Below are positions 1 through 48,231 of a DNA stretch of 48,231 nucleotides, in pieces. The stretch is from a virus. A program made the position numbers and the translations under genes. The stretch's first letter is position 1. Each line of letters starts with the position of its first letter. The stretch lies in IMG/VR virus record IMGVR_UViG_3300014962_000013, positions 1 to 48,231 of that record; one strand, written 5' to 3'. A model generated the notes under the pieces. The model was not told the origin of the DNA. It searched no databases and saw only the letters and a program-made list of their open reading frames with translations.

Positions 1-124
1 GTTGCTTCCTCTGCGCGGGGGTGGTGCCGCCCCAGACGCCGTACCGCTCGCCGTTGTCGAGTGCGTGGGCGAGCATGGCGTCGATCCGCCGCTCAACCCG
101 TCGGCATCCTGGACGGACGTTCAC
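1..124 (-). CDS. WhiB-like protein lacking the Cys cluster (partial at window edge)
   Basis: A GTG at 124 overlaps the stop of the lysozyme-like gene (GTGA), and 41 codons stay open to the window edge. The last visible residues, ALDNGERYGVWGGTTPAQRK, match the C-terminal part of WhiB-like proteins: the G-V-W-G-G turn followed by a basic DNA-contact tail. The four cysteines that normally bind the [4Fe-4S] cluster are missing: only one Cys (residue 7) is present, and the usual C-L-x-x-A-L is M-L-A-H-A-L. It may be a cluster-free WhiB derivative or a decayed remnant. If the window ends join, the frame continues for 11 more codons from 48231 and stops at 48199-48197, giving 52 residues. The family assignment is fairly firm; function is unknown. 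Confidence 0.7.
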   Translation of the reverse strand, partial: MNVRPGCRRVERRIDAMLAHALDNGERYGVWGGTTPAQRKQ

Positions 125-1784: not shown

Positions 1785-2037
1785 CGTCTTCCTCCTCGCT
1801 TATCGCGTCCTGGATCTCCTCGACAGTCATCGGGCTTACTGCGTCGTCAAGAACGTCGGTCAGTAGAGCCTCGATGGAGTCCTGCATCTCCTGCACCTCG
1901 TCCAGGTACTGGGAGTCCGAGTCGAGCGGGATATCCACGGCGTGATGGATCACAACGCCCGTTCGATACACCTCGTCGTAGTCGATCCGGACACCTACCT
2001 CATTGAAGGTGACCCGCTCCACGAAGCGCCGCGTCAT
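1768..2037 (-). CDS. Hypothetical protein with acidic C-terminal tail
   Basis: The 89-residue product begins M-T-R-R-F-V-E-R-V and ends in a run of glutamate and aspartate (E-E-E-D-D-D-D-D-D). The middle (E-V-Q-E-M-Q-D-S-I-E-A-L-L) is amphipathic helix. Start ATG 2037 overlaps the WhiB stop (ATGA). Strongly acidic small phage proteins often mimic DNA or inhibit host DNA-binding proteins, but nothing specific supports that here. Confidence 0.6.
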   Translation of the reverse strand: MTRRFVERVTFNEVGVRIDYDEVYRTGVVIHHAVDIPLDSDSQYLDEVQEMQDSIEALLTDVLDDAVSPMTVEEIQDAISEEEDDDDDD

Positions 2038-2333
2038 GCGACCATCTCCTCGCGCTCGATGAGCGCCTCGACGGCCACGTCCCACGGATCGGCCCCGGCA
2101 TGCACCTTCGGATGCAACTCGCGCCGCTCGTGAGCGGTGAACCCGGCCCAGATTCCGTCATAGCAGTTCGTCTCCAGCGCGAACGCCAGACACTTAACCC
2201 GCACGCGACAGCCACTGCACACGCTCCGCACCGTGCGAGCGACATAGCTCTCCGGAGTCTGCTCCGGGAAGTAGGTTTCCGGATCCATGCTGGCGCAGTC
2301 GGCCATGCCCTGCCATCCCCCATCGAGCTTCAC
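2034..2333 (-). CDS. WhiB-family transcription regulator
   Basis: The 99-residue protein has the full WhiB signature: C13, then C39-x2-C42-x5-C48 (V-C-S-G-C-R-V-R-V-K-C), which bind an oxygen/NO-sensitive [4Fe-4S] cluster in this family. These are followed by the turn G-I-W-A-G and T-A-H-E-R-R. WhiB proteins act on sigma factor region 4 and DNA to control actinobacterial development; phage copies can repress host whiB genes. GTG 2333 was chosen since it overlaps the upstream stop (GTGA) and has a GGAG Shine-Dalgarno. An extra C57 lies close to the turn. It is one of three WhiB-like genes in the window. Confidence 0.93.
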   Translation of the reverse strand: MKLDGGWQGMADCASMDPETYFPEQTPESYVARTVRSVCSGCRVRVKCLAFALETNCYDGIWAGFTAHERRELHPKVHAGADPWDVAVEALIEREEMVA

Positions 2334-2614
2334 GGCAGCACCGCCGTCTCCATGCCGTCCCATGGGGACAGTTCCACATCGATGGCCTTCAAGGTCTGGA
2401 TACGCTCCAGGCTCCCAGTCCGGTCATTCACCATGTGGGCAATGCCCGTTACGCGGCACTCCACGATCAGTCGAACGATCTCGTCGGTGTGCAGGACTGT
2501 GTTCTGGATGTCGAGTCCGAGGGTGCTGGACATGCGCACCTTGGTCGTCTCAACTGGCTTTCCCTCGAAAGCCGGGATCGGTGGGTACGCCGGGGGCTGT
2601 TCTGAGTAATCCAT
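2330..2614 (-). CDS. Hypothetical protein, 94 residues
   Basis: The product starts M-D-Y-S-E-Q-P-P-A-Y-P-P-I-P and continues with a small alpha/beta segment (T-D-E-I-V-R-L-I-V-E-C-R-V-T-G-I-A). No family is recognised. ATG 2614 has a good Shine-Dalgarno (GGAG) but lies 65 bases inside the upstream zinc-binding gene, a longer overlap than usual here. The stop overlaps the WhiB start, so it is co-translated with WhiB. Confidence 0.6.
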   Translation of the reverse strand: MDYSEQPPAYPPIPAFEGKPVETTKVRMSSTLGLDIQNTVLHTDEIVRLIVECRVTGIAHMVNDRTGSLERIQTLKAIDVELSPWDGMETAVLP

Positions 2615-8693: not shown

Positions 8694-9797
8694 TCATGCG
8701 GTGCGAATAGTCGTTCCGTGATGGAAGGCGTTACCTATACGGACAGCATCAACAGTCATACCGCCAAGTGCGGCTACCCAGATTGACGATCCATCGGATG
8801 CGACAAACGCCTGCTGTCCAGCCACGACTCGCGTGGGTGCAGCGTCGATCAGGGCGTTCGTCCACGGCCCATTGAAAGCCTGTGCCCAACGGATACCGCC
8901 GAGCGAGTAGCCCTCCCCACCCCAGTTCTGCGTGATCTGGCCGGTGGTTACGACGTAACCGCTGCCCCGTGCGATAGATGTCGGGTAGCTGTAAGTGAGG
9001 TTCACCCCTGGTGCCACTTCGAGCGTGTCATCCATGAGGTCTTCGGTCCACGGTCCAGCGGCCGAAGCGGCATGGTGCAGCATGGGCAGTCCGTCATAAC
9101 TGGAGTACGCCCACGACCCGTCCGTATAGCCAGTGATGGTCATGGCGGTCGCGGATCCTGTTGTGTGGCTTGAATATCCGCTGCTCGGATAGGATGAAGC
9201 CGCCACAGCGAATCCAGTGAACGACCCATAGGACTCAGATGCCGTGCCCAGCATGTAGTAGGTACCGGCTTCGTATGCGATAGCAGTACAGGTACTCATC
9301 CCGGTGTAGGAATACACGTCCCACGTTGCGCCGTCTGTCACGGCAACGAGCGGAAAGTATGTGTAGTCGATGGGGTCCTGGTCAGTGCCCAGCAGGAACA
9401 CTCGGCCATTCGCCACCGATAGCCCACCTAGTCCATGCGCTGCGTCCCACGGAGTTACCTCCGACGACCATTCCCCGCCTGGAGTGCCCGCCGATAGGAG
9501 CAGGGTGTCGAATCCAGATGGCGATGGTTGCTGGCAGACGATGAGCCATTTGGTCCCGTCATAGACAGGGGAAATTTCCGCAAGGGAATCCGTGGCGACA
9601 GGGAGATACACAAGATTCCATGGCCCGTTGACAGGATCGTCAGTCCACCAGATGACGCTGTGGTAGATCGTGTAGCCGCCATACGGAACGTCGATCCACT
9701 CACCGATCTTCCCAAGTGCTACCCAGGTTCCCGCATGGGTGGCTATTGCACTGACGAGGCCGCCTAGTGAGACGGGAGGTCCGAACTCCAGCGCCAT
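8694..9797 (-). CDS. Beta-propeller-like minor tail/adhesin protein
   Basis: The 367-residue product is rich in Gly, Ser, Thr, Trp and Tyr, with repeated blade-like units (D-G-T-K-W-L-I-V, T-W-V-A-L-G, S-S-I-W-V-A-A-L-G-G), the look of a sialidase/BNR-type propeller. It is the last of the tail genes and its ATG overlaps the preceding stop (TGATG), so it is probably a virion tip or receptor-binding component. A protein of the same style is encoded on the other strand at 46.2-47.5 kb. The 135 bases downstream to the nuclease gene show no gene. Confidence 0.65.
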   Translation of the reverse strand: MALEFGPPVSLGGLVSAIATHAGTWVALGKIGEWIDVPYGGYTIYHSVIWWTDDPVNGPWNLVYLPVATDSLAEISPVYDGTKWLIVCQQPSPSGFDTLLLSAGTPGGEWSSEVTPWDAAHGLGGLSVANGRVFLLGTDQDPIDYTYFPLVAVTDGATWDVYSYTGMSTCTAIAYEAGTYYMLGTASESYGSFTGFAVAASSYPSSGYSSHTTGSATAMTITGYTDGSWAYSSYDGLPMLHHAASAAGPWTEDLMDDTLEVAPGVNLTYSYPTSIARGSGYVVTTGQITQNWGGEGYSLGGIRWAQAFNGPWTNALIDAAPTRVVAGQQAFVASDGSSIWVAALGGMTVDAVRIGNAFHHGTTIRTA

Positions 9798-41005: not shown

Positions 41006-42628
41006 TCAAAATGATCCGATGAACTGATCCAGTACGGGACGGCTCACTGTCTTCGCATTCAGCATGGCGTCAATAGCCGATAGTCGCTTCGCTGCAATGG
41101 CCATTTTTCCAGCGTCCAGGGTGTGGTACTTGCCTGCGGAGAAGTTCTTCTTCCCGTATGGGTTGCCTGCGGATTTCACCACCGTGTAGTTCTGGCCTTG
41201 CCACTCCTGGAGAAGCTCCCCGTCGAATGGGAGTGTCAGCCCCTTGGCGTCAACGATCTCACGCAGGGCATCAGAGGAGAACTCCACGATGTTGCGCTCG
41301 ATCTTCAAATCCTCCTGAGTCTCGCCCTTCTCCAGGGGACGATCCTCGAAGCCAATGACGTACTTCGCGGAGAAGTTGTACCCCTTCATGCGGTCCCGGT
41401 ACCTGCCTTCCAGCGCCTGCCACAGTGGGAACCCGACGCCGGTACGGTCGATACCGAACGTTTGGAGCTTCGGACCATATGAAGCGAACAGGTGTTCAAT
41501 GACTTCCTGCTGCTGGAGTACGGGGATGCGCTGCAAATGGACCCGCAAGAGCAGATCCAAATGTTCCTTCGCACCCCCAGCGCGCTGACCGAACACGAGG
41601 ATTTCGCTTGGATGATTGGTGACGCCAACGTCCATTCCGGCGTAGTAGGCGGAGTACCCCTTCGGAGCCCCCGACCACCCATGTTTGTGTGTTCCGGGGA
41701 TGTATAGATGATTCAGGATCGAACTGTCCTCTGGAACATCCTCTGCATTGATCGAGGCGTGCAGGTAGACATCGGTGTTGTACTCACTGCCCGAATCCTT
41801 GTCCACAGATGCCATGAGGCGTGCCAGAACGAACAGTGGGCTGGAAGCGTCACCGTGCTCGCCGTAGATGTTGCGCTTGTAGTCGGGCGACTGGCGTGAT
41901 CCGCCGTAGATGATGGTCTTCTCGTCGCGCTCGGCGGAAGTCCATGTCACCTTCTGCATCGCCATGGGGCGGTGGACAGTCCACTCGGTGTTCTCGTTCA
42001 TGGTGATCTCGTAGAAACGGTCGCGCACGCCTCGCGGGACACCATGGCAGCGCCAGGATGCCCCCGGTAGACCGCGGTTCAACGTCTCAACAATCTCGAT
42101 CCAGCCGGCCAGTGGGTAGTCCTGCGCCTCATCGAGTTCGATTTTGATGACGTGCTGGCCCTTCACGCCCTTCCCATCCCTCTGTGGGAGGCGCGACACG
42201 ATCTTCGCGTCATTGAGGAATGTGCATTCCCAATGTGGAGAGCGCATGACTCCCCGACTTCTTCCCCTTGGGCGCATCTCCATGGTGAGCCAATACCTGT
42301 CGAGGCGTTCCTCGATCTTCGCAGTCAGCGGCTTCAAGTGGTTGAGTTCGGGCGCAGTGAGGAGAAGGTGCTGGCCGGGGTAGTTGAAGGCAAATGCGAA
42401 GGCTCGCATGGTGATTCCAACTGTCTTTCCTAGCGCTCTCGCACCCTGCTCGACTTGGTACATGTCCTCGCAGGAGTACATCTCCCACTGGAATGGCCAC
42501 GCCCGATACCGGCCTGACTCGCTCTCCTCGTCCTCCCATAGGAACTCAGCGATATCCAATCCAGACTCGTCCGAGAGGATGGCGTAAAGGTACTTCTCCT
42601 CCTCATCGGGCTCGATCAGAAGACTCAT
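41006..42628 (-). CDS. terL: Terminase large subunit
   Basis: The 540-residue packaging motor has ATPase motifs A-R-A-L-G-K-T (63-69, a variant Walker A) and I-E-L-D-E-A-Q-D (163-170, Walker B plus catalytic Glu). The RNase H-like nuclease has Asp residues at D333 (A-G-M-D-V-G), D394 (F-G-I-D-R-T) and D505 (H-T-L-D-A-G). It cuts concatemers and pumps DNA into the prohead through the portal. ATG 42628 overlaps the HTH gene stop. Confidence 0.95.
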   Translation of the reverse strand: MSLLIEPDEEEKYLYAILSDESGLDIAEFLWEDEESESGRYRAWPFQWEMYSCEDMYQVEQGARALGKTVGITMRAFAFAFNYPGQHLLLTAPELNHLKPLTAKIEERLDRYWLTMEMRPRGRSRGVMRSPHWECTFLNDAKIVSRLPQRDGKGVKGQHVIKIELDEAQDYPLAGWIEIVETLNRGLPGASWRCHGVPRGVRDRFYEITMNENTEWTVHRPMAMQKVTWTSAERDEKTIIYGGSRQSPDYKRNIYGEHGDASSPLFVLARLMASVDKDSGSEYNTDVYLHASINAEDVPEDSSILNHLYIPGTHKHGWSGAPKGYSAYYAGMDVGVTNHPSEILVFGQRAGGAKEHLDLLLRVHLQRIPVLQQQEVIEHLFASYGPKLQTFGIDRTGVGFPLWQALEGRYRDRMKGYNFSAKYVIGFEDRPLEKGETQEDLKIERNIVEFSSDALREIVDAKGLTLPFDGELLQEWQGQNYTVVKSAGNPYGKKNFSAGKYHTLDAGKMAIAAKRLSAIDAMLNAKTVSRPVLDQFIGSF

Positions 42629-43119
42629 CTAATGCTCGTTTCGCGGGCGATGCGCTTCACTGCCGCGACACTGAGGTTCGGGGCATTCAAGTACGCCTGC
42701 GAGACGAGTTCCCCCAGCTTTGTAGCCCTCCACTCCAGGAAGAATGCTGGGGATACCCCGGCAGCCTTGGCGGCCATCTCCATGGTGCGCATATCCGGTC
42801 GGGCCGCTCCCGTGAGCAGTTTGGATAGCTGCGACTGCGAGACGTGCATGCGGGGTGCGAAATCTACCTGCCTCTCCCCATCCATAACGTCCGCGAGAGC
42901 GTCACAGAATGGCTGCGCGCTGAAGCGCTCCGGGTAGATGGCTGCAAGCAGGTCGTCCATTCCGATGGCCGCCGGTTTAGGTCGGCGGCCTACTCGTGGA
43001 GCCGCGTCAGCCTGCATGATCTTCACGACATCAGAGAGGATTCGATAAACCACATCTGGGTTGTTCTCGATGGCGTCTGCCCACTGGTCGATTCCGTGAG
43101 CCTGCTCGACCGGGTTCAT
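42625..43119 (-). CDS. XRE-type HTH protein, small terminase candidate
   Basis: The 164-residue protein has the HTH M-H-V-S-Q-S-Q-L-S-K-L-L-T-G in its middle, followed by R-T-M-E-M-A-A-K-A-A-G-V-S-P-A-F-F-L-E-W-R, the shape of an XRE/lambda-repressor-like domain. Placed directly before terL, it may be the DNA-recognition terminase subunit. A transcription factor role is the alternative. ATG 43119 was chosen for its ATGA overlap. Confidence 0.6.
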   Translation of the reverse strand: MNPVEQAHGIDQWADAIENNPDVVYRILSDVVKIMQADAAPRVGRRPKPAAIGMDDLLAAIYPERFSAQPFCDALADVMDGERQVDFAPRMHVSQSQLSKLLTGAARPDMRTMEMAAKAAGVSPAFFLEWRATKLGELVSQAYLNAPNLSVAAVKRIARETSIR

Positions 43120-43781: not shown

Positions 43782-44210
43782 CTAATGCTGGAGACTCGCC
43801 ACTTCGATCAAAGCACCGGGATTATCGAGGGTGTACTGCTTCACGGCAGCAACTCGCACCACCTGGGAGTCATCCCCCCATACCTTCGCCTGAGTCAAGG
43901 CATCCAGCGTCGAGCGCAGGCACTTGTCTGTATCGGGGAATCGTGGATAGTCCGGGGCGGAATCCTTGAGGGTTCCGTCGCTGCGTAGATGCGACTTCGG
44001 GCGGGGCAGGTAGAAGGCGACCGTCACGTCCACGGGTCCTTCAAGCATCGTGTCAGCAAAGCCATGCTGGGCTGCCGCAGCTGCGACCGCATCACGCCAG
44101 GGCTTCACCTTCTTGCTGGACTCCACGAGAACGACACGGTCACTGTTCTTCAGGCGGAACGGCGTCTTGCTTCCCTGCGGTGCGGGGATTCCCGGAGCGA
44201 AGAAGATCAT
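43782..44210 (-). CDS. RusA-like Holliday junction resolvase
   Basis: The 142-residue protein has the RusA order: P-G-I-P-A-P-Q-G-S-K at the start, Y-L-P-R-P-K-S-H (67-74), catalytic-type P-D93-T-D95-K-C-L-R-S-T-L-D-A-L, V-W-G-D113-D114-S-Q-V-V, and K124. RusA enzymes cut four-way junctions with a pair of metal ions. It is first in the leftward unit that leads to the terminase genes, fitting a role in trimming branched DNA before packaging. The start lies 8 bases from the first operator-like palindrome. Confidence 0.88.
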   Translation of the reverse strand: MIFFAPGIPAPQGSKTPFRLKNSDRVVLVESSKKVKPWRDAVAAAAAQHGFADTMLEGPVDVTVAFYLPRPKSHLRSDGTLKDSAPDYPRFPDTDKCLRSTLDALTQAKVWGDDSQVVRVAAVKQYTLDNPGALIEVASLQH

Positions 44211-44217
44211 GCTCTGT

Positions 44218-44320
44218 GAACGTCCGTTTTGATGAACTAATGCAAATCCATCTACATAAATGGACGTTTCAGCGACACATTCCTACAAAATGTCCATTTG
44301 AATGAATAGAACGTTCATTT
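44218..44320. promoter_or_regulatory. Cluster of four operator-like palindromes upstream of the RusA/terminase operon
   Basis: Four 12-bp sites of form AAAYG-N2-CRTTT occur in about 100 non-coding bases: GAACGTCCGTTT (44218), AAATGGACGTTT (44258), AAATGTCCATTT (44288) and GAACGTTCATTT (44309). Two are exact, two have one mismatch. They lie where the promoter of the leftward late operon should be. A dimeric repressor or activator site is the natural reading; the protein is unknown. No clear -35/-10 pair was found. Confidence 0.6.
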
Positions 44321-44367
44321 AAGAAAAGAGGGTCTGAAAGACCCGAAAGCCAGGGAAAGCGCTGGCT
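44321..44367 (-). terminator. Rho-independent terminator after the sigma factor gene, with tandem hairpin
   Basis: On the leftward strand GGGTCT pairs with AGACCC around a 3-base loop (44330-44344) and is followed by TCTTTTCTT (44329-44321), a typical terminator. Just before it a second stem pairs AGCCAG with CTGGCT (44348-44367). It would end the sigma factor transcript before the operator cluster. Confidence 0.7.
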
Positions 44368-44491
44368 CGTTCTCCACCCTGCTCCTATACCCGCAGGGCT
44401 CCTTTGAGGGTAGCAGACCAGTCAATAGGACACTTGTGGCGTTTAGTGGAGCCAAATGCAGTTTCCGCTCAAAACACCAATTTAGACTCGA

Positions 44492-44515
44492 AAACGTCTA
44501 TCTAAATGTCCATTT
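44492..44515. promoter_or_regulatory. Tandem operator-like sites downstream of the sigma factor gene
   Basis: A degenerate copy, AAACGTCTATCT (44492-44503), abuts an exact AAATGTCCATTT (44504-44515). A similar degenerate sequence, AAACGACAATCT, lies upstream of the sigma gene near 45323. The rest of the non-coding stretch 44368-44536 is AT-richer than its surroundings; it has one small stem (CCCTGC/GCAGGG near 44380) and no gene. Confidence 0.45.
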
Positions 44516-44536
44516 GAGGCAAAAATGTGATGCAGA

Positions 44537-45295
44537 TCACCGCAACACGGCCATGCGTTCCCGCAGCAGCAAAACGATGTCCGCGTACATGGCGCATACC
44601 TTCGATCCATTCATGTCTAGGAGTCGCGCTATCTCGCGCAGCTTCATCCCGTCCACGTAGTAGTGCCACACAATCCGCTGCTCGATCTCCGGCAGCCACG
44701 AGATCGCCTCGGCCAGCGTGTTACGCAGCACTCCCTCTTCTGCGTCGAGTGCGTGATCGGACTCCCTTGATGGCTCCCGGTATTGGCTGTTGTCAGCGTC
44801 CGGGTCGATGATCATTGCGAAGGAGTCCACCTGTGAAGCGTGTGCATCTGACCTTGCTCGATGCACCATTGTCACCTCGATGTCCATGAGGTCAGCGATC
44901 TCGCTGTCGGATGGCTCGCGACCCAGTTTGCGGCGCAGTTCTTCGGTCGCCACCTCTACTTCACGGGCAGCAGATCGCACCGACCTGGGTGCCCAGTCCA
45001 GGCTGCGAAGCTCGTCGAGAATCGATCCGCGGATCCGCTGCGATCCGAATGTCTCGAACTTTGTTCCCAGGTCTGGGTCGTAGCGGTCAATGGCTTCCAT
45101 TAGGCCGAATACCCCGTAGGAGAACAGTTCATTGCGGTCCACAAACGGCGGCAGGCCGGCTCCGACTACTCCGGCGATGTAGCGGACCAGCGGTAGGTAC
45201 TGCTCGACCAGCTGATTTCGGATCTGCACGTTGCGCGTCTGGCGGTACTCGACCCACAAGTCCATGCTGCACCAATCCGGCGCACCCAAATACAT
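44537..45295 (-). CDS. WhiG/FliA-type sigma factor
   Basis: The 252-residue protein has region 2 (about 13-105: L-P-L-V-R-Y-I-A-G, F-S-Y-G-V-F-G-L-M-E-A-I-D-R-Y-D, F-G-S-Q-R-I-R-G-S-I-L-D-E-L-R-S-L-D-W). Region 3 has P-R-S-V-R-S-A-A-R and E-P-S-D-S-E-I-A-D-L. Region 4 (about 195-245) has L-P-E-I-E-Q-R-I-V-W-H-Y-Y and L-R-E-I-A-R-L-L-D. L-R-S-L-D-W-A-P-R-S-V-R is the hallmark of motility/sporulation sigma factors. It probably redirects host RNA polymerase to late phage promoters. A start at ATG 45265 is also possible. It is divergent from the rightward operon. Confidence 0.9.
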   Translation of the reverse strand: MYLGAPDWCSMDLWVEYRQTRNVQIRNQLVEQYLPLVRYIAGVVGAGLPPFVDRNELFSYGVFGLMEAIDRYDPDLGTKFETFGSQRIRGSILDELRSLDWAPRSVRSAAREVEVATEELRRKLGREPSDSEIADLMDIEVTMVHRARSDAHASQVDSFAMIIDPDADNSQYREPSRESDHALDAEEGVLRNTLAEAISWLPEIEQRIVWHYYVDGMKLREIARLLDMNGSKVCAMYADIVLLLRERMAVLR

Positions 45296-45388
45296 TGTCT
45301 TTCATCGAAAACCATTGGCACTAAACGACAATCTACGTATTCCAAGCGCGAATATGTCTTATGAATTCGCGTCAGTCGAAGCGAACCC
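45296..45388. promoter_or_regulatory. Divergent intergenic region between sigma factor gene and rightward operon
   Basis: The 93 AT-rich bases separate opposite coding directions and must hold at least one promoter each way. A weak rightward candidate is TTGGCA (45315-45320), 17 bases, TATTCC (45338-45343). AAACGACAATCT near 45323 resembles the degenerate site at 44492. None of this is strong enough to fix a start of transcription. Confidence 0.4.
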
Positions 45389-45640
45389 ATGCACATGGAG
45401 GCCGTTTCCCGAATTGGGACCCTTACGAAGATCACCGACCCGATGATGCAGCGTGTCAGGGCGACCGTCGCCCAGTACGCACACGATGACCGGGAGGCGC
45501 GCGACTTCATGGACATGTTGACGCCAGATCTCTGGCGTTGCGCAATCTGCAAACGTGTCTTCGTAGTCCAGTCGCTCGCCCGCTCATGCGAGAAGGGACA
45601 TTCAGATGGACGTGGTACTGGGGCCGGGAGCCCGCGGTAG
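45389..45640 (+). CDS. Small zinc-binding protein
   Basis: The 83-residue product has C51-x2-C54 (W-R-C-A-I-C-K-R-V-F) and C67-E-K-G-H71, a CCCH-type metal site, after an amphipathic helix (R-V-R-A-T-V-A-Q-Y-A-H-D-D-R-E-A-R). It is the first gene of the rightward operon. ATG 45389 follows a weak GAAG; ATG 45395 is possible. Regulator or inhibitor of a host protein are plausible but unproven roles. Confidence 0.55.
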   Translation: MHMEAVSRIGTLTKITDPMMQRVRATVAQYAHDDREARDFMDMLTPDLWRCAICKRVFVVQSLARSCEKGHSDGRGTGAGSPR

Positions 45641-45734
45641 CGAGCCTGCGCAGCCGGCAGTCGAGGAAATCATGGAGCCGGTAGTCGAGGCTGTCGAAGA
45701 GGTCGAGGACGAGGAACTGGAGGACGACGAATGA
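45606..45734 (+). CDS. Small highly acidic protein, 42 residues
   Basis: ATG 45606 follows AAGGGAC and TGA overlaps the next ATG (ATGA). Nearly half of the last 25 residues are Glu or Asp (E-E-V-E-D-E-E-L-E-D-D-E). Such peptides can mimic DNA or shield basic proteins. It overlaps the end of the zinc-binding gene by 35 bases in another frame. Confidence 0.5.
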   Translation: MDVVLGPGARGSEPAQPAVEEIMEPVVEAVEEVEDEELEDDE

Positions 45735-46012
45735 TCAAGGACACCGACGCACTTCTGGGAGCTGTCCCGGCACAGTGGATGCCGGAGAATCAGAACCCCA
45801 ACGTCGCCTACCGCATAAATGAGCAGACGGGTGAGCGCACTCCCCTGGCTGGGGCGACCGCTGAGGAGCCGAAGAAGAAGCGCGGCCGTCCGCGCAAGGA
45901 CGCAGCCGTCGAGGCCCCCGAGCCCGAGGCAATCGTTGAAATGCCCGTTCATGAGGATGCTCCCGTCCCCCTTAGTGACGAGGAAGTAGCACTCCTGGCC
46001 GAGGAGTCCTGA
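45731..46012 (+). CDS. Protein with AT-hook motif
   Basis: In this 93-residue product K-K-K-R-G-R-P-R-K-D near residue 50 is a textbook AT-hook, which binds the minor groove of AT-rich DNA. The C-terminal part is acidic and Pro-rich. AT-rich stretches in this GC-rich genome are concentrated in the regulatory regions at 44.2-45.4 kb, so self-regulation is conceivable. AT-hooks also occur in nucleoid-associated proteins of actinobacteria such as Lsr2. Confidence 0.7.
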   Translation: MIKDTDALLGAVPAQWMPENQNPNVAYRINEQTGERTPLAGATAEEPKKKRGRPRKDAAVEAPEPEAIVEMPVHEDAPVPLSDEEVALLAEES

Positions 46013-46233
46013 TGGAGTTCGGCAGCTCCCAGCACAAGGGCGTCATACCCTCCGGCGAACACGCCGGCCTAGAGGCGACCTTCATCGGTATCGAATTCGA
46101 CGGAGGCCGTCGATTCGAGCACTGGGAGCTGCCGAACGGCGAACGGATCACCCTCACAAGCCAGCTCACTGAGCAGGCGAGTGCAGTAGACGTGCCCCGT
46201 GAACTCGGAGTAGCCCGCCCGCAAGGCGCATAG
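46012..46233 (+). CDS. Hypothetical protein, 73 residues
   Basis: A compact beta-rich product: G-L-E-A-T-F-I-G-I-E-F-D-G-G-R-R-F and W-E-L-P-N-G-E-R-I-T-L. The start overlaps the AT-hook gene stop (TGATG). No family is recognised. Confidence 0.55.
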   Translation: MEFGSSQHKGVIPSGEHAGLEATFIGIEFDGGRRFEHWELPNGERITLTSQLTEQASAVDVPRELGVARPQGA

Positions 46234-46241
46234 GGGCATCC

Positions 46242-47450
46242 ATGGTCGACTACTCGACTTGGACGACATACAACCTGGACGCCACAGGGTCATATCCAGG
46301 TCCCTCTTACGCCTCATACATCGACGGTGAATGGATTGTCGCCGGATCCGGCAGCAGCTCCACCGTAAAGGCATGGGCAACCACCTCTCCGGAAACTCCG
46401 GCGACATGGTCGTCCGCCACGGTTGGTCCGACCAACGGCCTAACAATGATGCCGACGCTGACCAGCGGAGTCTTCAAGGCAGACGGCTCCTACCACCTGG
46501 GCTACATGGCGAATACCTCTCCACTATCCACCTCCTACGAGTACCTGCTAGGCGCGGCAAGCACCCCTACGGGGACATGGTCAGTTCAATCCGCATTCAC
46601 CGCCCCTAAGTCATCCATCTATGTGCCGTCCTACGCGAATGGCTATTACGTCTTCTCGGGGAATCGCGTTGTCTCGGGGAGCAATCGCGGAACTCTCAAG
46701 TTCGCCACGACTCCAACGGGAACTTGGACGCAAGTAGACATCGGCTCTACCGCTGTATTCGGGTACGACGATCTCTATGGCGAGATTGGTCCAGCAGTAG
46801 TATTTCAAGGCGGCTACTACTACGGGCTAGCCGTGTCCCTTGTCGGATCAACAGGTACAGGGTCCGGGTCGTACCGCCGCTGGAGCATCTGGCGATCAGC
46901 GAGTCTGGCATCCGGCTGGACGATGGTTTTCAACTTCCCTTTCACGGCGTCAACCCAGCACGATGCACGCTACCTACGCTGGCATGGCGACAAGTGGACA
47001 GTATTCGGCGGCCCGCAGGTTTCCTACGCCGACGGTGCATCAACCATCTACTCATCTCCAGATGGCACCACCTGGACTGCGGAGTCGACGCTTCCCACTG
47101 GGAGATCCCCTTACAGCATCGCCTACGGAAGTGGGCACTGGGTCATCTCCGGAAACTACTTCACCAGCAGCAGCTTCGGGTCGGCAACAGTCGGCTACGC
47201 GACCAGCCTCTCCGGGCCCTGGACATGGACAGGATCAAGCGGTCGCGGCCTAGACATCGGATACAACGCCGGCGTGTTCATGTTCACCCGCACATCCACC
47301 AGTGGTCCGCGGATCTCCTACCTCACCGCCAGCCCGCCAATCCTCATGAATCTCGACTCCCCCGGAATCTTCAGCCTCGCGGGCGGGGACCTCCAGCCTT
47401 CCGGGCCGGCATTAGTCACAGGATCAAACACGCGGGTGTTCTGGAAATAG
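46242..47450 (+). CDS. Beta-propeller-like protein on the rightward strand
   Basis: The 402-residue product has repeating units with a Gly-x-Trp and Tyr/Trp ladder (I-D-G-E-W-I-V-A-G-S-G, A-N-G-Y-Y-V-F-S-G-N, W-H-G-D-K-W-T-V-F-G-G, G-S-G-H-W-V-I-S-G-N). Five or more blades look likely. It resembles the tail-end propeller protein at 8.7-9.8 kb in style. No signal peptide is seen. Being in an early-type operon rather than the tail block is odd; it may be a detached receptor-binding or host-surface protein. Confidence 0.6.
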   Translation: MVDYSTWTTYNLDATGSYPGPSYASYIDGEWIVAGSGSSSTVKAWATTSPETPATWSSATVGPTNGLTMMPTLTSGVFKADGSYHLGYMANTSPLSTSYEYLLGAASTPTGTWSVQSAFTAPKSSIYVPSYANGYYVFSGNRVVSGSNRGTLKFATTPTGTWTQVDIGSTAVFGYDDLYGEIGPAVVFQGGYYYGLAVSLVGSTGTGSGSYRRWSIWRSASLASGWTMVFNFPFTASTQHDARYLRWHGDKWTVFGGPQVSYADGASTIYSSPDGTTWTAESTLPTGRSPYSIAYGSGHWVISGNYFTSSSFGSATVGYATSLSGPWTWTGSSGRGLDIGYNAGVFMFTRTSTSGPRISYLTASPPILMNLDSPGIFSLAGGDLQPSGPALVTGSNTRVFWK

Positions 47451-47468
47451 ACCTGTCGAAACACCCAC

Positions 47469-47690
47469 ATGACATGGCGCGATAACGCAGTCTGCATCGA
47501 CTACGACCCCGAGATCTTCTTCCCCAAACGCAGCTCGCGCCACTACGTGGAAGACGTGGCCTACGCCAAGAGCATCTGCGCCCAATGCCCCGTCACACAG
47601 CAATGCCTCCAAGAAGGCAGGAACATCGGGCGATCCGGGTACTACGGAATCCGTGGCGGCCTCACCGCCGACGAGCGCCACCGCCGATGA
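47469..47690 (+). CDS. WhiB-family regulator (second complete copy)
   Basis: The 73-residue protein has C9, then C37-x2-C40-x5-C46 (S-I-C-A-Q-C-P-V-T-Q-Q-C), the iron-sulfur ligands of the family, and G-I-R-G-G-L-T-A-D-E-R in place of the usual G-V-W-G-G turn (Trp to Arg). ATG 47469 has no clear Shine-Dalgarno. Its TGA stop (47688-47690) is followed in the same frame by a coding-like Cys-rich stretch, so a longer readthrough product is possible. Confidence 0.92.
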   Translation: MTWRDNAVCIDYDPEIFFPKRSSRHYVEDVAYAKSICAQCPVTQQCLQEGRNIGRSGYYGIRGGLTADERHRR

Positions 47691-48186: not shown

Positions 48187-48198
48187 AAATGCTCATTT
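48187..48198. promoter_or_regulatory. Exact palindrome AAATGCTCATTT near the right end
   Basis: This perfect AAAYG-N2-CRTTT copy lies between the putative end of the Cys-less WhiB-like gene (stop at 48199-48197) and the last leftward gene. It would be well placed to control a promoter for that gene. Confidence 0.5.
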
Positions 48199-48231
48199 AG
48201 GCGCGCATCTTGCGGGTGGCCCCTCGTGCGC
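48197..48231 (-). CDS. Putative C-terminal end of the Cys-less WhiB-like gene across the window junction
   Basis: Joining position 1 to position 48231 continues the frame of the gene at 1-124 as R-A-R-G-A-T-R-K-M-R-A followed by TAA at 48199-48197. A short basic tail directly after the GVWGG turn is what WhiB-like proteins usually have. This is the reason to think the window ends are adjacent in a circular or cos-joined genome. The call depends wholly on that junction and is inference. Confidence 0.5.
   Translation of the reverse strand, partial: ARGATRKMRA

Follow-up and report, generated by a model that had tools for sequence, protein, structure and literature searches.

A FliA/WhiG-family sigma factor with an altered region 4.2 helix in an uncultured virus that also encodes WhiB-like proteins

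The sigma factor and its locus

The IMG/VR virus record IMGVR_UViG_3300014962_000013, which is classed as linear and is considered here over its whole length of 48,231 bases (hereafter the window), encodes an RNA polymerase sigma factor of the FliA/WhiG family at positions 44537 to 45295 on the minus strand. The protein is 252 amino acids (aa) long, although a later ATG at 45265 would give a 242-aa form, and Pfam sigma regions 2, 3, and 4 are found along it in order (2e-12, 4e-9, and 2e-8). It contains the hallmark LRSLDWAPRSVR exactly, as the initial annotation had claimed, and scores above the curated FliA_WhiG cut-off, TIGR02479 (203.4 vs 189.6 bits). The score against the WhiG equivalog model, NF004935, falls below its cut-off (216.6 vs 343 bits), and identity to Streptomyces venezuelae WhiG is about 40%. 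The AlphaFold model, with a mean pLDDT of 85.5, has the sigma-70 fold, and a Foldseek search with this model ranked WhiG (6PFV) first among the experimentally solved relatives in the PDB. The right label for the protein is FliA/WhiG-family sigma; the name WhiG is not established.

On the minus strand, the sigma gene is followed by a terminator-like hairpin, a 119-nucleotide (nt) AT-rich region, and then RusA, g59, the small and large terminase subunits (TerS and TerL), and the structural genes. The stretch after the sigma stop codon (44325 to 44536, minus strand) is predicted to hold a structured RNA that ends in the terminator (fold z-score of -2.93), and no known RNA family in Rfam matched it. 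The hairpin, which resembles an intrinsic terminator and sets the sigma gene apart from the late operon (44330 to 44344, minus strand), is made up of 6 pairs followed by TCTTTTCTTA. Next to it lies a putative late promoter/operator region (44211 to 44329, minus strand), the most AT-rich 119 nt of the window at 36% GC vs 61%, which carries four copies of the palindrome AAAYGNNCRTTT discussed below. The window's three most AT-rich (lowest-GC) segments are those flanking the sigma gene.

The first gene of the late operon encodes a RusA-like Holliday-junction resolvase (43782 to 44210, minus strand; PF05866, 3.7e-18). Directly before TerL is a helix-turn-helix protein, probably TerS (42625 to 43119, minus strand; HTH_3), which is kept in this position in most relatives. 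TerL itself (41006 to 42628, minus strand; phrog_5909) matches the TerL of GX15bay at 38.5% and served as the query for related phages. In 9 of the 13 other sigma-bearing contigs in which both genes could be placed, the sigma gene is found upstream of g59-TerS-TerL and in the same orientation, and in one relative, L085, it comes after Sak4, DnaB, and HNH genes. Because the sigma gene sits before the late operon, the terminator, and the AT-rich region with its four palindromes, the gene order makes a phage middle or late sigma factor the best reading.

The -35 helix, promoters, and RsiG contacts

Region 4.2 is the part of a sigma factor that recognizes the promoter -35 element. In the window sigma, the recognition helix of this region (residues 228 to 240, with codons at 44576 to 44614 on the minus strand) reads MNGSKVCAMYADI in place of VTESRV[SC]Q[IL]HTKA. 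Taking as conserved a position that has the same residue in at least 33 of 34 bacterial FliA/WhiG sequences, one of the five conserved helix positions is kept (the changes being E to G, R to K, Q to A, and H to Y), compared with 16 of 18 in sigma-2, all 5 in sigma-3, and 6 of 8 in the rest of sigma-4. The bacterial signature of the helix, TESRV[SC]Q[IL]H, is replaced by NGSKVCAMY; this signature was drawn from our own alignment and not from a curated family definition, and its loss bears on function rather than on family membership. The altered helix is still predicted by AlphaFold to be well folded, with high confidence. Four or five of the five helix positions are kept in 15 of 16 other phage sigmas, and L089 keeps two. 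Since the changes fall in the helix of region 4.2, with its established role, the sigma has probably changed its -35 specificity and retained its reading of the -10 element. What makes the locus interesting is this phage-lineage sigma and its rewritten -35 helix.

The initial annotation had suggested that the sigma factor and the WhiB proteins are aimed at the WhiG/WhiB sporulation cascade of the host, a proposal that finds little footing here. The flagellar/WhiG promoter TAAA-N15-GCCGATAA is not over-represented in the window (allowing up to 2 mismatches, 2 sites were counted vs 2.9 expected), and access to the host WhiG regulon via canonical phage-borne promoters was rejected on this result. 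The same motif is slightly over-represented in some related loci and also in some loci that have no sigma gene. With the -35 helix off its signature and no enrichment of the flagellar/WhiG promoter, use of the host WhiG regulon by the phage sigma appears unlikely. The sigma motif does not imply a role in development either, as WhiG, the sporulation sigma of Streptomyces, is itself of the flagellar type (PMC8325347).

In the complex of WhiG with its anti-sigma RsiG, residues K57, G61, and R62 of WhiG contact cyclic dimeric guanosine monophosphate (c-di-GMP) (PMC8325347). The window sigma has R, G, and V at these positions, so that only the glycine is kept, and control of the phage sigma by RsiG seems doubtful because of these changes. 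Related phages also lack the c-di-GMP contacts.

Relatives and descent of the sigma gene

The terminase search found 37 viral contigs, as well as GX15bay, that are related to the window TerL. A FliA/WhiG-type sigma is encoded by 10 of the 20 terminase-related records of at least 30 kb (8 over the cut-off, 1 in two frames, and 1 weak). A scan of 2.9 million viral contigs with a sigma alignment gave 18 close and 6 distant relatives; these emerged with the alignment as query, and a peptide scan from the window sigma alone gave no viral relative. None of the tblastn matches listed for this sigma or WhiG at 1e-5 was a GenBank phage record with a named actinobacterial host, and near-identity searches of phage records were negative. 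Human-fecal "Bacteriophage sp." scaffolds in GenBank with FliA matches were left out of the phage count as apparent bacterial contamination. As a pointer to the host, a terminase-related prophage was sought in 397 Actinomycetota genomes and 4 others, with no positive control, and none was found.

In a maximum-likelihood tree, most phage sigmas are placed on long branches away from the bacterial clades. The branch of the window sigma is among the longest, at 2.24 changes per column, and has no bacterial sister. The best bacterial identity to it is 41-43%, the bacterial-genome scan for the sigma having used a two-sequence alignment. Recent capture of a host whiG was rejected on the grounds of this identity, the long branch, and the missing bacterial sister, and the sigma looks like an old phage-lineage gene rather than a fresh acquisition from a host. 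The tree does not resolve all phage sigmas as a single clade.

Two further observations concern these relatives. Several that have no full FliA/WhiG sigma (L056-L058) carry a short open reading frame (ORF) that is conserved across contigs and weakly similar to sigma region 3, with the pattern ARQSLY..KRDGI..AI..L....GRAPS..E(I/V)AEV.D.S.ATLH.Y. There is also a second, distant group of phage sigmas (L102-L107), which has a DW[AV]TRTLRSKSKKLKDAGQDEG-like motif and is 23-24% identical to the window sigma.

The WhiB-like proteins and their relation to the sigma

The window encodes two complete WhiB proteins, in agreement with the initial annotation. The one at 47469 to 47690 (plus strand; PF02467, 3e-17) is WhiB1-like and was aligned to WhiB1 (6ONO). 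Its family score and four cysteines (Cys...CxxCx5C) fit the WhiB family, and the Trp and Phe-Phe are kept, but the GVWGG turn has become GIRGG, with Arg in place of the turn Trp. The other, at 2034 to 2363 (minus strand; PF02467, 3.4e-18), was aligned to WhiB (8DY7) and is a four-Cys member of the WhiB-like (Wbl) family that scores above the Pfam cut-off, with Cys...CxxCx5C, a GIWAG turn in which the Trp is kept, and YF for FF. A third gene at the left edge (1 to 124, minus strand; Pfam E 7e-6) had been described as WhiB-like and Cys-less. The gene is real and has no cluster Cys, but it is partial, being a C-terminal half that runs off the edge and matches only WhiB profile positions ~40-63, the GVWGG turn, and it does contain a single Cys, away from the cluster positions. 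Joined to 48197-48231 it comes to 52 aa (E 9e-7), so that, if the contig is circular, the Fe-S half would be wholly absent from a 52-aa mini-protein. The sigma and WhiB family matches are all far beyond chance.

WhiB genes are found in 24% of 2,951 actinophage genomes, and 182 phages have two copies (PMC8612146). A tested precedent for their action is the WhiB of TM4, which represses host whiB2 according to work cited in that paper (PMC8612146). The WhiB-bearing phages of the sigma lineage presumably infect actinobacteria.

The suggestion that the sigma and the WhiB proteins form a developmental set is not supported by how the genes are distributed. Across the 20 terminase-related records of at least 30 kb, WhiB is present in 3 of 10 with the sigma and in 2 of 10 without it (Fisher p = 1), a comparison whose effective number is smaller because some of the records are related and many are fragments. 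Further sigma-bearing contigs have WhiB in 1 of 16. A co-inherited sigma-WhiB module was rejected on this independent occurrence, and a practical consequence of the negative result is that WhiG-like and WhiB-like genes found together should not be taken as a developmental module.

Structural precedent also bears on the pairing. Wbl proteins grip region 4 of sigma-A by aromatic residues, and binding is abolished by the H516A mutation in sigma-A or by F31A, F32A, or W76A in WhiB3 (PMC10245118). The residue of the phage sigma that aligns with His516 is Glu, the His being confirmed in SigA/HrdB; bacterial FliA/WhiG proteins also have no His at this position. Because of this Glu, and with the aromatic residues of the WhiB proteins compared, the host principal sigma would be the better candidate for a WhiB partner by the known binding mode.

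A dispersed palindrome

The top-ranked gapped 10-mer of the window, AACGNCCATTT (8 occurrences vs 0.03 expected), forms part of the 12-bp palindrome AAAYGNNCRTTT. Allowing at most one mismatch, the palindrome has 24 sites window-wide vs 1.3 expected under an order-2 Markov model; they range from 3066 to 48198 and cluster at 44218 to 44320 and 44504. Its asymmetric form exceeds synonymous-codon shuffles (24 vs 10.1, standard deviation 1.4) and is not enriched in 13 loci of related phages. The palindrome was first noticed beside the sigma gene, so the cluster there is non-independent evidence; independent evidence comes from the copies within genes and from the unbiased ranking. AAAYGNNCRTTT represents a new family of sites, operator- or stoperator-like in their distribution. 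Compared with sites of the L5 type, these are dispersed and repeated in the same manner but, being palindromic, are not asymmetric or oriented with transcription, and no repressor was identified in the window.

Record ends and neighboring features

When the two ends of the window are joined, the left-edge WhiB-like ORF gains a basic tail and closes in frame 11 codons on, at a stop codon (48197) that directly precedes a perfect palindrome. The sigma gene then also comes to lie downstream of replication/HNH genes, the arrangement seen in L085. The window sequence has no end repeat, and it is only suggested that the record could represent a whole genome in circularly permuted form.

A small AT-hook protein (KKKRGRPRKDA) is encoded at 45731 to 46012 on the plus strand, the same strand as the WhiB at 47469; its PF02178 match, at E 0.015, is below the cut-off. 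Divergent from the sigma gene, at 45389-45640, is a small ORF with a zinc-finger-like CxxC...C...H pattern, which could be a regulator or could be due to chance. Two large proteins rich in W/G repeats, possibly of a beta-propeller or receptor type, lie far apart at 46242-47450 and 8694-9797, and the first of these has no significant Pfam or PHROG match.

Proposed function and alternatives

We consider it somewhat probable that the gene encodes a phage sigma of the FliA/WhiG group for middle/late phage promoters and that the WhiB proteins are separate from it. Such a sigma would bind the host core RNA polymerase and redirect it toward phage middle/late promoters. Its sigma-2, the core-binding half that reads the -10 element, is essentially FliA/WhiG-like, while the rewritten helix would read a phage-specific -35 element, or would need a helper there, and the host flagellar/WhiG regulon would be largely ignored. 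Coded where the replication module meets the late operon, the sigma would turn on the RusA/TerS/TerL operon. The WhiB proteins, an ordinary feature of actinophages, would act on region 4 of the host principal sigma (SigA/HrdB). A more elaborate possibility, which we hold as tentative and on balance unlikely, is a new actinophage circuit in which the sigma with the re-specified -35 helix fires a late promoter held by a phage-specific palindromic operator with ~20 further genomic copies, so that late transcription is gated by the sigma together with an operator-binding protein.

Several points count against a middle/late role. No promoter motif read by the sigma was found, so that the link to the late genes rests on position. 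Phage sigmas can also be dispensable, as phage SP10 lost its sporulation-like sigma and kept its virulence (PMC9429907). Finally, because the -35 helix is of the usual kind in most related phage sigmas, the alteration belongs to one genome and could mark functional decay.

This last point leads to the view, to which we give a low probability, that the sigma is a competitor or a relic that binds core RNA polymerase with no useful promoter recognition, either sequestering the core or a host anti-sigma or simply decaying. The long branch and the loss of recognition-helix residues in this genome only, and partly in L089, are what such a protein would show. Its ORF is nonetheless intact and confidently folded with a well-conserved sigma-2, and the changes are concentrated in the DNA-reading helix instead of being evenly spread. 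Somewhat less improbable, but still unlikely, is that the sigma joins or hijacks the FliA/WhiG regulon of the host, for sporulation or motility, escapes RsiG, and changes development to the benefit of the phage. Sigma-F-like sigmas of Bacillus phages are able to do this, and there is precedent in ELDg169 of phage Eldridge, which activates sporulation genes and cuts spore yield (PMC9429907), and the ~40% identity to WhiG, the near-intact sigma-2, and the R, G, and V at the c-di-GMP contacts, which would loosen RsiG control, all fit. The helix signature fixed in bacterial FliA/WhiG is gone from the phage sigma, however, and the contact loss is common to related phages and so is not specific.

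We regard as the least probable alternative a pairing in which at least one phage WhiB protein attaches to region 4 of the phage sigma and makes up for the lost -35 contact, so that phage-only promoters result. A degenerate -35 helix makes a helper conceivable, and three WhiB-like genes and the AT-hook protein are present in the same genome. Against this, the phage sigma has Glu where H516A abolishes Wbl binding to sigma-A, the WhiB at 47469 has Arg at a Trp whose loss abolishes binding (PMC10245118), and most sigma-bearing relatives have no WhiB. Late transcription of the phage's own, which the initial annotation had proposed as one possible role of a sigma-WhiB pair, survives as the best reading for the sigma but not for the pair.

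Comparison with known systems

The closest solved relative of the phage sigma by both sequence and fold is WhiG of Streptomyces (6PFV, with RsiG), with which it has in common the order of sigma-2, sigma-3, and sigma-4 and the motif DELRxLDWxPRSVR. It differs in being 40% identical, in failing the equivalog cut-off, in its rewritten -35 helix, and in changes at two of the three c-di-GMP contact residues. Membership above the TIGR02479 cut-off is shared with FliA (sigma-28) of motile bacteria, from which it is set apart by region 4.2 and by a window with no enrichment of flagellar promoters. With its -35 helix naturally rewritten on a near-intact sigma-2, the phage sigma lends itself to a clean test of how private promoters are gained by such sigmas.

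The two complete WhiB proteins of the window have, like WhiBTM4 and others, the four cysteines of the Wbl family that is common in actinophages (PMC8612146), but have GIRGG and GIWAG turns and are accompanied by a C-terminal-half mini-protein. Similarly, the palindromes recall the operators and stoperators of L5 and other cluster A mycobacteriophages in being more than 20 short, dispersed sites with a cluster at a promoter-like region, whereas in L5 a monomer binds asymmetric 13-mers and AAAYGNNCRTTT is a palindrome with many copies within genes (PMC9283540).

Sporulation-like phage sigmas have been reported only from phages of Bacillota (PMC9429907). Those of Eldridge (g169), SP10 (g120), and Goe3 (g157) are, like the sigma described here, phage-borne alternative sigmas akin to developmental sigmas of the host; they are of the SigF/SigG type, whereas the present one is of the FliA/WhiG type and occurs in a WhiB-bearing phage. 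A FliA/WhiG-type sigma in an uncultured phage lineage adds a second group of host developmental sigmas to those taken over by phages.

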